Under the pieces are notes generated by a model that saw nothing but the letters and a program-made list of their open reading frames with translations, made no database searches and was not told where the DNA came from. Below, one piece after another: positions 5,324-9,358 of a stretch of DNA of 21,599 nucleotides (the first letter of the stretch is position 1; each line of letters starts with the position of its first letter). Source of the stretch: a virus; IMG/VR virus record IMGVR_UViG_3300031972_000921, positions 1 through 21,599 of that record, one strand, 5' to 3'. The position numbers and the translations under genes are program-made.

Positions 5324-5564
5324 AATTAAAGGTGGTGGAACAAAGAAAGTTTGTTTGCCATATAATAAATACAAAAGCATGAGCAAAGCTGAAAAGCAAA
5401 AAGTAATACGTGCTAAACGTAGTGCTGCAGCTCAAGGTAAATATAAAAGATCTAGTAAGTCTAATGTAAAAGGCGCTAGAAAAAAAGGAGCTACACTACG
5501 TGATTGGTTCCAAAAAGAAAAATGGGTTAATATAGCTAATGGTAAGCCTTGTGGCGCTAAGTAG
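5310..5564 (+). CDS. Small basic protein with C-terminal LRDWFxxEKWVNI domain (DUF5872-like)
   Basis: The 84-residue product begins MPKSKIKGGGTKKVCLPYNK and ends in GATLRDWFQKEKWVNIANGK-PCGAK. The end pattern (L-R-x-W-F-x-x-E-x-W-V-x-I...G-K-P-C) resembles a domain I recall as DUF5872, seen in phages and large DNA viruses; the DUF number is from memory. The middle is Lys/Ser/Ala-rich with a SAAAQGKYKRSSKSNVKGAR stretch. A GTG start at 5289 would add seven residues, but the ATG at 5310 begins at the expected MPK. It is the last + strand gene, and its stop overlaps the stop of the opposing glycosyltransferase by 8 bp. Confidence 0.7.
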   Translation: MPKSKIKGGGTKKVCLPYNKYKSMSKAEKQKVIRAKRSAAAQGKYKRSSKSNVKGARKKGATLRDWFQKEKWVNIANGKPCGAK

Positions 5565-6384
5565 TTTTAACCCTTGATTTGTAATATTTAGTTCTTTCAT
5601 TAGAGGCTGTTATTATCATTGGTAAGTTCTTTGCCCAGCCTGTATACTTAATACTTCTCTTTTTTAAATCACTTAATATATGCCAAGTAACTTGATTTGT
5701 TCTTGTTAACCAAGAAACAAATTGTTCTTCGAGATAAGTATCATGAGCACTTGCTGCCCTTAAATATATAGGTAAATGCCAGCTATGTGGATCGTGTGCG
5801 CTTATGTTTGATTTTTTAGATTTTTTATTATATCCAACTCTTTTAGCTGGTGTTGATTTTGTAAAGAAATCAAAGCCTATCAATGATAAGCTTTTATATG
5901 TTTTAACTTTTTCTATAAACCACAATATAGTTAGAAAACCACTTGATGGTCTAAGATCAGTACCTATAATATCTTTATCAAAAACTTTCATAGTATCAAT
6001 AATTTCTTTATCACTATACATTTCTTGATAACCATATTTTATTAAATGAGGACACATATGTTTTTCAATAACAAACTCTTTTAAATGAAAGTTACCTCTT
6101 GATCTATTTAGTAATATATGTGTATTTTCAAACTTACCACCAGGTTTAAAATGATCTTTCATTTTTCTAAATGCATGAGATCTAAACTGACCAGTAACCC
6201 ATACATCAACTCTTTCGCTTAGTGATTTTTCTTGTAATGATGTAGCTTCTAATGCTCTACCAAACTTAACAACTATATCGTGGCTTTCTATAAATTTAGC
6301 ATGTTCATGCTTCATTATTTCTACAGAATTACCAACAAATATAACTGATTTATCTTTTACTATTTTCCTAATATCTTTCTCCAT
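5557..6384 (-). CDS. GT29 sialyltransferase-like glycosyltransferase (candidate Kdo/ulosonic acid transferase)
   Basis: The 275-residue product shows the sialyl motifs of family GT29 in order. The L-motif is SVIFVGNSVEIM at 13-24 with D36 and FGRALEA at 41-47, the S-motif is RPSSGFLTILWF at 145-156 followed by SLIGFDFF at 167-174, and the motif VS is H-x4-E at His214-Glu219 (HDTYLEE). GT29 enzymes transfer a sugar from CMP-linked nine- or eight-carbon ulosonic acids; plant GT29 homologues have been linked to Kdo transfer. Genes for KdsA and KdsB, which lead to CMP-Kdo, lie a few genes upstream in the same operon, so CMP-Kdo is the most likely donor (inference). There is no signal peptide, so it should act in the cytoplasm on an LPS or glycan precursor. 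The start overlaps the upstream gene by 25 bp. Confidence 0.8.
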   Translation of the reverse strand: MEKDIRKIVKDKSVIFVGNSVEIMKHEHAKFIESHDIVVKFGRALEATSLQEKSLSERVDVWVTGQFRSHAFRKMKDHFKPGGKFENTHILLNRSRGNFHLKEFVIEKHMCPHLIKYGYQEMYSDKEIIDTMKVFDKDIIGTDLRPSSGFLTILWFIEKVKTYKSLSLIGFDFFTKSTPAKRVGYNKKSKKSNISAHDPHSWHLPIYLRAASAHDTYLEEQFVSWLTRTNQVTWHILSDLKKRSIKYTGWAKNLPMIITASNERTKYYKSRVKTT

Positions 6385-7010
6385 TCATTTGCAAATTCAC
6401 AATCTTTATACTCTTTAAACCAAGGTCCACCATTTGTAAAGTGTATACCCTTAGCGTTACTAGAACCATCTTGTTCTCCAACTAAATGATTCCATATTTT
6501 ATCAATCTCACTTATTTTGTTTTCAGCCCAAGCTAATTGGTGTAAATCCGCAGCGCTAGCATTGTCTAAATATTCTTTTGTTAAAATATCTTTTAACTTT
6601 TCATTATTAAAAACCATTAATGAACTCCAGTTTTTTCTTGGATACGCTTTATTTACAATGCCGTCCATTTTGGTAGATTTTGATTCATAATACTTATGCT
6701 TAACACAAGCTACTAAATCTCTATCGTTTAGTTGTTTAAAAATTTTAGCAACATCATCTCTAAATATAAAGTCATTATCACAAAACATAGACACACCTTT
6801 GTAGGCAGACATAAGTGGCACATAAAACCTAGTAAATGAAAACTCTGTTGATTCACCTTGTATATCTTTTCTACCATACACACCTTTGTTTATTAACTTA
6901 TGTTTATATAAAGGTATTACTTTAATGTTTTTGTTATATGCTTTAATCGAATTGTAGCATGCTTTAGTAGCGTCTGGGTATCTGCTATCATGCCCTATAA
7001 ATACTCTCAT
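6360..7010 (-). CDS. GT-A fold glycosyltransferase, GT8-like
   Basis: The 216-residue product begins with a Rossmann-like strand (MRVFIGHDSR) followed by a helix and strand pattern typical of GT-A enzymes. It carries a DxD metal/nucleotide-sugar motif at Asp78-Asp80 in FCDNDFIF, and near the C-terminus the GIHFTNGGPWF motif, which corresponds to the H-F-T-G-x-x-K-P-W region of family GT8. It should use a UDP- or other NDP-hexose donor. Size is close to the short end of the family. Its start overlaps kdsA by 4 bp and its end overlaps the GT29 gene by 25 bp, so the two transferases are probably made together and work on one surface glycan. Donor and acceptor are not predictable from sequence. 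Confidence 0.7.
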   Translation of the reverse strand: MRVFIGHDSRYPDATKACYNSIKAYNKNIKVIPLYKHKLINKGVYGRKDIQGESTEFSFTRFYVPLMSAYKGVSMFCDNDFIFRDDVAKIFKQLNDRDLVACVKHKYYESKSTKMDGIVNKAYPRKNWSSLMVFNNEKLKDILTKEYLDNASAADLHQLAWAENKISEIDKIWNHLVGEQDGSSNAKGIHFTNGGPWFKEYKDCEFANEWRKILGK

Positions 7011-7759
7011 ACTAATTGTTTTAATATTTCTTCAAATTTATCTAACTTAATCATATTAGACCCGTCACTCCATGCAGCGCTAGGATTTTCGTGTACTTCA
7101 AAAAAGTAACCATCAACGCCAACTGCTTTCGCAGCTTTTGCAATGTGTATAGCATAGCGTGGTTGACCAGCCGTTGTGCTACCTGAATTAGGTCTTTGTG
7201 TTGAGTGGGTGCAGTCCATTATAACTGGTACACCTAACTCTTTCATATCTACGATCTGTCTAAAATCTACAACAAGATCACCCATACCAAACATACTACC
7301 TCTTTCAGTTAGCATAATATTATTATTACCTGTACTTTTAACTTTATTAACAGCATGCACCATATTACTACCATTTATAAACTGTCCTTTTTTAATATTA
7401 ATATTTCTAAACGTATTACCTGCAGCAACTAATAAATCAGTTTGTCTACATAAATAAGCTGGTATTTGTATAATGTCTACAACGTCAGCTAACCTATCTG
7501 CTTGCCAAGGCTCATGTATATCTGTTGTAATTTTACAACTATCTAAATCTTTCAACTCAGCAAATATATCTATAGCTTTGTCTATACCAATACCTCGTTT
7601 AGAGTTTACAGACGTTCTATTAGCCTTGTCAAATGAAGCTTTGAAATAATAGTCAAAGCCATATTTGTCCGCTAGCTCTTGACATTTGTTAGATATTTCA
7701 TGAGCTTGTATTCTACCTTCTAGACTACACGGACCAGCTATTAATATCGGTTTTTTCAT
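7007..7759 (-). CDS. kdsA: 3-deoxy-D-manno-octulosonate 8-phosphate synthase (metal-dependent type)
   Basis: KdsA condenses phosphoenolpyruvate with arabinose-5-phosphate to Kdo-8-phosphate in the cytoplasm. The 250-residue TIM-barrel product shows the signature AGPCSLEG (8-15), FKASFDKANRTS near 39-50, DIHEPWQA, IQIPAYLCRQTDLL and NIKKGQF. Cys11 in GPC, His in CTHST, Glu in FFEVHENP and Asp in WSDGSN are the four metal ligands of the metal-dependent class (Cys11/His/Glu/Asp as in Aquifex), whereas E. coli has Asn in place of the Cys. The closely related DAHP synthase is less likely because of the KASFDKANR motif. Length is slightly below the usual 270-280. It overlaps both neighbours by 4 bp. 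Kdo-8-P phosphatase (KdsC) and arabinose-5-P isomerase (KdsD) are not in the window. Confidence 0.93.
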   Translation of the reverse strand: MKKPILIAGPCSLEGRIQAHEISNKCQELADKYGFDYYFKASFDKANRTSVNSKRGIGIDKAIDIFAELKDLDSCKITTDIHEPWQADRLADVVDIIQIPAYLCRQTDLLVAAGNTFRNINIKKGQFINGSNMVHAVNKVKSTGNNNIMLTERGSMFGMGDLVVDFRQIVDMKELGVPVIMDCTHSTQRPNSGSTTAGQPRYAIHIAKAAKAVGVDGYFFEVHENPSAAWSDGSNMIKLDKFEEILKQLV

Positions 7760-8382
7760 GGAGTAAAATTTATTATTATTTTATGTTTTGGTATATATTT
7801 TCTTAATAATTTTTTCCACTCACCTCTTGGCATTAACGTGCAGTGCATATTTTCACCGTCCATAAAATGCGCGTGTGAAGGGCTTTGTGGTATTGACATT
7901 ACTATTGCGCCACAAGTACACGTTAAATCAGCTATATCTCTTAACAATGCAGGCAGCTCTTCTAATGGCACGTGCTCTATAACATCATTAACAACTGTTA
8001 AATCAAATTTAATATCTGGTGGTCTCATATAATACTTAGGGTGAAAAGGATCGTACCTGTAAAAACCCTGTAAGTTTTCACCAAGAAACTGTGTAAGTGT
8101 CATGGCATCATATTTTTCAGGAACACGTTTACCTGGTTTAGTATATTTTTCACCGTTGTAAATAGCCATTTTATTATCCCAAACCATACCAGATCCACAA
8201 CCATAATCTAATAACATTGTGCCAGGGTTTTCATCAACCCACTTTTTAACAGGTTTTAGTACAGTTTTAAAACCTGCACCATTACCATAGTTACCTTTTT
8301 TTACTCTCCATTCGCCGTCTGGATATTTTATTTTATATTCAGCACCTTCGTGTAGTGCTTTGTATTTTTCTGCATATTTCAT
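7756..8382 (-). CDS. Class I SAM-dependent methyltransferase in the sugar cassette
   Basis: The 208-residue product contains the SAM-binding motif I LLDYGCGSGMVW (57-68), the motif II/IV region FDLTVVNDVIEHVP (126-139) and a following helix plus GAIVMSIPQSPSH strand, as in Methyltransf_11/23-type enzymes. The N-terminal 50 residues (YKALHEGAEYKIKYPDGEW) are unlike common families. It overlaps kdsA and kdsB by 4 bp (ATGA) on both sides, so methylation of Kdo or of a sugar in the same glycan is the natural guess. The acceptor is unknown. Confidence 0.75.
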   Translation of the reverse strand: MKYAEKYKALHEGAEYKIKYPDGEWRVKKGNYGNGAGFKTVLKPVKKWVDENPGTMLLDYGCGSGMVWDNKMAIYNGEKYTKPGKRVPEKYDAMTLTQFLGENLQGFYRYDPFHPKYYMRPPDIKFDLTVVNDVIEHVPLEELPALLRDIADLTCTCGAIVMSIPQSPSHAHFMDGENMHCTLMPRGEWKKLLRKYIPKHKIIINFTP

Positions 8383-9017
8383 TTTATATCATTATAAGTG
8401 TTAATTTCTACGCCATTATATGTAGTTTCAACTACATCAATATCGTATAAACCTAATATTTTGTTTTGTTCTAAGTTTTCTGATTTATATTTATCTTTCA
8501 TAGCTCTATATGCTTTTAACAAATAAGGTTTATAAGCATATATACCTAAGTGTCTATCACCATAACCTATGTCAGATCTTGTAAACCACATTGCTTTACC
8601 ATTTTGATGTATAACTTTAACATCATCTGATTTAGCGCCTTTAGTATATGCAGTTAAACATACTACATCTTTTTTGTTTAATGCTTTTATTATAGGTTTA
8701 ATTGTATCTAGATTTATATCAAGCATATCACCTTGTATGTTTAATACATAATCATATCCATTTACTAAATCTAATACAACTCGTTTAGATAATCTATGTG
8801 TACCGTTATCGGCTTTACCTGTTTGTATACACCATTTCATAGGAAACAGTTTAGCAATACGCTTGCTGTCTGTTGCTACAAATGTATCATATCCCATCAT
8901 ACGTACTTTATCAAACACAAGACGTATTAGAGGTTCATCATCGAACTTCATTAACATTTTGTGTTTGAGTCTAGTACTATTAAGTCTTGCTGGTATAACT
9001 ACCGCTATGTTTTTCAT
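8379..9017 (-). CDS. kdsB: CMP-Kdo synthetase (3-deoxy-manno-octulosonate cytidylyltransferase)
   Basis: KdsB activates Kdo with CTP to CMP-Kdo in the cytoplasm. The 212-residue product shows the nucleotidyltransferase signature VIPARLNSTRLKHK (7-20) with Arg10, Arg16 and Lys20, FVATDSKRI (46-54), NGTHR (71-75), the metal-site NIQGDM (93-98, Asp97) and the family-specific HLGIYAYK and SENLEQNKIL segments. The end, DVVETTYNGVEINTYND, matches the usual VE-x-x-x-x-G-V-x-x-x-x-D end. It is about 30-40 residues shorter than cellular KdsB, mainly in the middle. It sits two genes from kdsA in the same overlapping operon, which argues against a generic CMP-NeuAc synthetase. Confidence 0.9.
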   Translation of the reverse strand: MKNIAVVIPARLNSTRLKHKMLMKFDDEPLIRLVFDKVRMMGYDTFVATDSKRIAKLFPMKWCIQTGKADNGTHRLSKRVVLDLVNGYDYVLNIQGDMLDINLDTIKPIIKALNKKDVVCLTAYTKGAKSDDVKVIHQNGKAMWFTRSDIGYGDRHLGIYAYKPYLLKAYRAMKDKYKSENLEQNKILGLYDIDVVETTYNGVEINTYNDIK

Positions 9018-9358
9018 GTCTTAGTACCAGCTGTTCTTCTGATTATATCATCGTGATTAAACTCAGCCCAATATAATTCAAAAGCAACACCATCTTCAAT
9101 ACCTTCAAACTGATGTACCTTACCAGGTTTTACCATAGTAAAATCACCTGCTTCAAGTATTGTTTCATCAACAAGACCTTGATCTTCTTGCCATACCCTG
9201 ACAAGCATTTTACCGGATTCTACAAAAAATCCGTTCCATTTAAATCTATGCTCATGTTCAGAGCATTTAAATCCTTTATTAAATTCTATTCGGTGAAACT
9301 CCATGACACCATTTTTATGTATCATTTCTGTTTTACCCCATATTTTACCTGCTTTCAT
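9014..9358 (-). CDS. Single-domain cupin, sugar-isomerase-like
   Basis: The 114-residue product is a complete small cupin. Motif 1 is GFKCSEHEHRFKWNGFFVESG (29-49) with His35 and His37 as metal ligands, and motif 2 is AGDFTMVKPGKVHQFEG (70-86) with His82. The opening WGKTEMIHKNGVMEFHRI is reminiscent of short mannose-6-phosphate isomerase C-terminal-like cupins. Placement at the front of the KdsB/KdsA/glycosyltransferase genes, with a 4-bp overlap to kdsB, suggests action on a sugar or sugar phosphate; supply of a Kdo precursor is speculative. A regulatory cupin cannot be excluded. Confidence 0.7.
   Translation of the reverse strand: MKAGKIWGKTEMIHKNGVMEFHRIEFNKGFKCSEHEHRFKWNGFFVESGKMLVRVWQEDQGLVDETILEAGDFTMVKPGKVHQFEGIEDGVAFELYWAEFNHDDIIRRTAGTKT

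Follow-up and report, generated by a model that had tools for sequence, protein, structure and literature searches.

A gene cassette of a common marine phage group that probably makes Kdo and attaches it by a sialyltransferase-family enzyme

Glycosyltransferase family GT29 is best known for sialic acid, and the CMP-Kdo users WaaA (GT30), WbbB (GT99) and KpsC (GT107) belong to families other than GT29. Use of Kdo by GT29 enzymes has nevertheless been proposed before. The Arabidopsis GT29 protein RCKT1/MGP2 is needed for Kdo in RG-II and was proposed, on the evidence of mutants, to be a CMP-Kdo transferase; it was hard to express, its acceptor was unavailable, and no enzyme assays were reported (PMC11288761). 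In E. coli K6, a GT29-GT107 fusion was assigned to a putative poly-Kdo capsule (PMC13171606). Furthermore, KdsA or KdsB was reported in ocean viruses (PMC10653327, PMC5332604), kdsA and kdsB being auxiliary genes that viruses of the surface ocean commonly carry (PMC10653327), and the accessible text of these two reports draws no link to a GT29 enzyme. A phage GT29 is present in UniProt under automatic annotation (A0A6J5NLG3), and a literature search found no description of a phage GT29 together with Kdo genes; what appears to be new in the locus described here is a phage GT29 beside Kdo genes.

The window, the whole stretch of DNA that was analysed, is a 21.6-kb viral record with genes for ribonucleotide reductase, a primase-helicase, ERF, a sigma-like protein and an M15 peptidase. 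Its minus-strand gene order is nrdB, nrdA, JmjC-type oxygenase, a 66-aa ORF, cupin, KdsB, methyltransferase, KdsA, a GT8-like protein (GT8L) and a GT29-like protein (GT29L) (Table 1). The six cassette ORFs from cupin to GT29L, all with ATG starts, were recovered with the same boundaries as in the initial annotation, and its description of KdsA, KdsB and the GT29-like gene as one overlapping operon was borne out: consecutive reading frames overlap by 4, 4, 4, 4 and 25 nt, the last overlap being that of GT8L and GT29L. Overlaps of 4-25 nt continue throughout the run starting at nrdA, and purifying selection acts on the cassette genes (dN/dS about 0.05-0.4).

Table 1. Cassette genes and adjoining upstream genes in the window.
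Feature	Coordinates	Strand	Basis
GT29-like (sialyltransferase-fold) glycosyltransferase, 275 aa, proposed CMP-Kdo transferase	5557..6384	-	profile, AF2 model, Foldseek
GT8-like retaining-type GT-A glycosyltransferase, 216 aa	6360..7010	-	phrog_28018, DxD, Foldseek
KdsA, 3-deoxy-D-manno-octulosonate 8-phosphate synthase, 250 aa	7007..7759	-	TIGR01362, PDB, active-site motifs
SAM-dependent methyltransferase, 208 aa	7756..8382	-	PF13489 2.2e-7
KdsB-like CMP-Kdo synthetase (CTP_transf_3), 212 aa	8379..9017	-	PF02348 1.4e-22
Small cupin, 114 aa	9014..9358	-	PF07883 1.1e-7
Small ORF, 66 aa	9345..9545	-	weak phrog_618 only; kept in close relatives
JmjC/RoxA-type 2-oxoglutarate oxygenase-like protein, 275 aa	9542..10369	-	PF08007 5.5e-16

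Single-protein searches with the window GT29L found nothing in Pfam, PHROGs or NCBIfam and no meaningful PDB match. The profile of its group (A3, 46 sequences) matched only sialyltransferases in the PDB (ST3Gal1, ST6Gal1, ST8SiaIII and ST6GalNAc2; best E 6.5e-6), with no other PDB protein at E<1. PF00777 was matched by six of eight group members, two of them above the cut-off, and this cut-off was passed by the relatives in jumbo phage LR756500 and in phage DLP6 (30% identity to GT29L, E 6e-15). The AlphaFold (AF2) model of GT29L (pLDDT 85.4, pTM 0.87) matched the GT-A variant 2 fold of mammalian sialyltransferases in Foldseek, where ranks 1-30 were all GT29 (E down to 2.9e-7, TM about 0.40-0.52), rank 31 was the GT42 enzyme CstII, and subsequent matches were weak and mostly unrelated; the structural comparison thus came out in favour of the GT29 assignment made by the initial annotation. 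Because both the group profile and the model match GT29 structures, GT29L is, by sequence profile and predicted structure, a divergent GT29-fold enzyme. In the genome collection, its only close relative was on a phage-like contig in an alphaproteobacterial MAG, other bacterial matches being distant.

Motifs L, S and VS are present in GT29L. Of 61 distinct homologues, 57 carry the ordered pattern GNS - PSxG - GFDFF - S[WH]H - HxxxxE, and it turned up in no shuffled version of the window protein out of 200,000; this second count rules out chance composition only, since the pattern was derived from these homologues. GNS, aligned with the motif L donor residues N147 and S148 of ST3Gal1 (ST3Gal1 numbering), is kept in 59 of the 61 sequences, and the motif VS H-x4-E with the catalytic base in 60, being missing in DLP6. 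The motif L Asn of ST3Gal1 (N170), which contacts the phosphate of CMP and is able to bond to the C8 hydroxyl of Neu5Ac (PMC6884586), aligns with Gly in the phage group and is retained as Asn in LR756500 and in locus L089. Human ST3Gal1 N170A keeps partial activity (PMC6884586), so this Asn is no absolute requirement. A near-invariant S-W-H without Tyr lies at the approximate place of motif III (H-Y). The Cys pair between motifs L and S is missing, the window protein having one Cys only; bacterial GT29 enzymes are also without it (PMC5811610), and the pair is therefore not defining for bacterial GT29. Of the earlier claim that all three GT29 motifs are present, the motifs and their order stand, with departures from the canonical sialylmotifs at the motif L Asn, the Cys pair and the motif III Tyr.

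In comparison with CAZy GT29/PF00777 (ST3Gal1, ST6Gal1, ST8SiaIII, ST6GalNAc2), GT29L has in common the fold, the motif L-to-S profile match and the order of GNS, P-S-x-G, GF and H-x4-E, but differs in lacking the Cys pair and an evident membrane anchor, in having Gly for the motif L Asn and W-H rather than H-Y, and in the window member falling below Pfam detection. RCKT1/MGP2 shares the GT29 family and Kdo as the proposed donor; it is a plant Golgi enzyme acting on pectin, whereas phage GT29L is short, has no evident anchor and is linked to Kdo-synthesis genes. The E. coli K6 locus, putatively for a Kdo polymer, likewise encodes a bacterial GT29 domain, but this domain is fused to GT107 in a capsule protein, whereas phage GT29L is free-standing and paired with GT8L.

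GT8L matched phrog_28018 in PHROGs (E 2.7e-49), and its best Foldseek matches were the GT8 structure 3tzt and LgtC (E 7e-9 to 8e-9); by its model it has a GT8 fold, with an invariant DxD (D78, D80) and an HxTxGxPW-type motif. No membrane segment is evident in the sequence of either GT8L or GT29L, and both look cytosolic. None of the GT8L neighbours in phages S-SCSM2R, Mosig and CcrColossus is recognisably GT29, and GT8L therefore has no need of GT29. In phages without GT29, DUF6716-like putative glycosyltransferases (weak matches) are encoded near GT8L (L130:13750-14547 and L095:6641-7471); they could possibly be a stand-in for GT29.

The window KdsA scored 325.8 bits against NCBIfam KDO8P_synth (TIGR01362; curated cut-off 314), its best PDB matches were Kdo8P synthases (3fs2, E 3e-72), and its active-site motifs are retained across phages; its identity, as judged from sequence, is certain. 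The family nearest to the KdsB protein in NCBIfam was KdsB, at 69-114 bits where the cut-offs start at 155 (69.2 bits against TIGR00466, cut-off 155.2), and the best PDB match was KdsB 2y6p (E 5e-18). The QGD, HLGIY and LEQ motifs are kept, and IDT is changed to INT and QGDE to QGDM group-wide, the former replacing by Asn, throughout the clade, the Asp of the C-terminal IDT motif, a metal ligand in KdsB. A role as CMP-Kdo synthetase can be assigned to this protein by family, with active-site caveats; the earlier naming of the gene as kdsB thus holds for the nearest family and is weakened by the scores below cut-offs and the substitutions near the active site.

At least 487 viral relatives of GT29L were found on marine viral contigs, and 84 loci were surveyed for gene neighbourhood. 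KdsA or KdsB lay near GT8L in 39 of these, the cupin lay next to GT8L without KdsA/KdsB in another 39, and six were too short to be assigned. The cupin and GT8L were within 26 bp of each other in 37 of the 39 loci lacking Kds genes, with a methyltransferase-like gene between them in the other two, and no KdsA was found elsewhere on the Kds-lacking contigs (up to 68 kb). On the GT29L tree the presence or absence of Kds genes required two changes, against 16.7 in shuffles, so the Kds block was gained or lost rarely. The constant core is cupin, GT8L and GT29L, with KdsA/KdsB optional. About half of the loci do without KdsA/KdsB, so what is conserved is cupin-GT8L-GT29L and not GT29+kdsA+kdsB; the linkage of GT29 to Kds genes anticipated by the initial annotation was seen in the 39 loci with KdsA or KdsB and in two unrelated phages.

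The cupin is the most conserved cassette gene (84-100% identity in most relatives, dN/dS about 0.05). It adjoins GT8L/GT29L in Kds-lacking loci and was also found near KdsA in divergent viral loci (L128-L132). The methyltransferase is variable, being replaced or missing in relatives, with other methyltransferases occupying the region. Genes inserted between cupin and GT8L in other members encode CxxCxxCC-like proteins and methyltransferases, and no nonulosonate enzymes were found among them. The cupin and the methyltransferase may be sugar modifiers. The JmjC/RoxA-type oxygenase is the first gene after nrdA, upstream of the cupin in loci with and without Kds genes, and separates the cassette from nrdA in nearly all relatives reaching that far; whether it is a cassette member is uncertain.

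GT29 and KdsA were also found together outside the window group. Contig L131, with a tail-sheath-like gene beside the cassette, has the order KdsA-cupin-GT29-GT8L (GT29 at 42% identity), and in jumbo phage LR756500 a stretch of 11 kb takes in, all on the same strand, GT29 together with KdsA, KdsB, a protein of the KpsC/S family and a SIS protein resembling KdsD. These are two unrelated phages with GT29 and KdsA, and it is chiefly this co-occurrence, in different gene orders, that supports a functional link. Other arrangements were KdsA with a SIS gene and MptE-like proteins on the flanks (L127), KdsA-cupin and GT8L with no GT29 found (L130), and, in phage DLP6, a methyltransferase-GT8L-GT29L trio with no KdsA match. 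Scans with the L131 and DLP6 GT29 proteins for close relatives found no further loci. In L131, KdsA (L131:8918-10312) has a fused C-terminal extension of about 200 aa with no convincing family match, and a 2349-aa repetitive, Thr/Ser/Tyr-rich reading frame with a TTG start is located at L131:809-7858.

An alternative donor pathway within the group was looked for and not found: among 19 phage records, both with and without Kds genes, there was no NeuB and no CMP-ulosonate synthetase besides KdsB, the only cytidylyltransferases being one each, at the cassette, in five Kds-positive records. WaaA (GT30; Glycos_transf_N, PF04413) was absent from nine records, five of them Kds-positive, the KpsC/S family (PF05159) from eight Kds-positive records, and a SIS (KdsD) gene from ten records of the group; the contigs in these donor and transferase searches may be incomplete, and the absences are not absolute. 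GT29L is therefore the sole CMP-sugar transferase candidate recognised, and both its GT29 fold and the lack of WaaA and KpsC/S in the Kds-positive records searched agree with the earlier view of an enzyme distinct from WaaA.

Beyond the gene content, order, folds and conservation established above, we consider it fairly probable that GT29L is a phage Kdo transferase that uses CMP-Kdo as donor and works on a surface glycan together with GT8L; its donor, acceptor and role are what we infer. KdsA, assigned by family, would convert phosphoenolpyruvate and host arabinose-5-phosphate to Kdo-8-phosphate, a host phosphatase would strip the phosphate, and KdsB, assigned by family with the caveats given above, would convert Kdo to CMP-Kdo, from which the GT29-fold enzyme would transfer Kdo with inversion. 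GT8L would add a nucleotide-diphosphate sugar adjacent to Kdo, so that the two transferases together probably make or cap a short Kdo-ended glycan. Phages lacking Kds genes would draw on the host CMP-Kdo pool, and those carrying them would raise the supply. The likeliest target would be the LPS core of the host, which is made on the cytoplasmic side, virion proteins also being possible; alteration of the LPS core during infection might prevent progeny or competing phages from binding. The GT29 and GT8 folds, the certain KdsA, the lack of NeuB, GT29 with KdsA in unrelated phages and the Asn to Gly change count for the use of Kdo. Counting against it are the absence of Kds genes from about half of the loci, DLP6 without KdsA, and the KdsB scores under cut-offs with the INT and QGDM changes. 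A wider scheme, in which a phage GT29 branch transfers Kdo, KdsA/KdsB are a swappable supply and the cupin performs an unrecognised ulosonate-pathway step, is distinctly unlikely; the extra step was considered because cupin and KdsA genes are neighbours in unrelated phages, whether GT29 is present or not.

Alternatively, GT29L might use another host CMP-ulosonic acid (sialic, pseudaminic or legionaminic), with KdsA/KdsB merely boosting general LPS synthesis, as the optional nature of the Kds genes and the use of CMP-Neu5Ac by animal GT29 enzymes (PMC6884586) would suggest. The lack of NeuB and of any non-Kds cytidylyltransferase in the 19 records, the pairing of GT29 with KdsA in two unrelated phages and the motif L Asn to Gly change in the group argue against this explanation, which we regard as rather unlikely. 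Virion proteins of the phage itself, instead of host LPS, could also be what the cassette glycosylates, though this is unlikely. The cytosolic appearance of GT8L and GT29L and the tail-sheath-like gene adjoining the L131 cassette are consistent with virion glycosylation, but the cassette of the window group follows nrdA/nrdB and heads towards lysis-type genes, not structural genes, and Kdo is typical of LPS and capsule and, to our knowledge, not of known virion glycans.

Modification of phage DNA or of a nucleotide by GT29L/GT8L is very improbable. The nrdA/nrdB genes and the JmjC-type oxygenase are directly upstream, and the GT8L of Pelagibacter phage Mosig is also near nrd genes; however, the DLP6 and CcrColossus relatives lie among other glycan genes, with no nrd in the stretch examined, and we know of no role for KdsA/KdsB in known DNA modification. 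If the preferred reading, Kdo transfer by GT29L, is true, a short phage GT29 without an apparent anchor, beside CMP-Kdo enzymes, would open the question of Kdo use by GT29 to a direct test. Viral kdsA/kdsB would also gain a concrete function, and a widespread marine-phage route to changed host surface sugars would be indicated.

No enrichment of TAnnTTTG, the Bacteroidota promoter element, was detected. The nearest relative of the window primase-helicase was that of Cellulophaga phage phi10:1 (42% identity), and A-rich sequence, with no clear Shine-Dalgarno, lies ahead of the start codons in the window. A secreted 395-aa protein of beta-rich appearance (574-1761), conserved across the group and with no Pfam or phage match, resembles a Bacteroidota outer-membrane barrel protein. 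A flavobacterial host is likely on account of these three features. In addition, the protein encoded at 2349-2762 is thioredoxin-like (PF00085 2.5e-7), and its N-terminus resembles a signal sequence.
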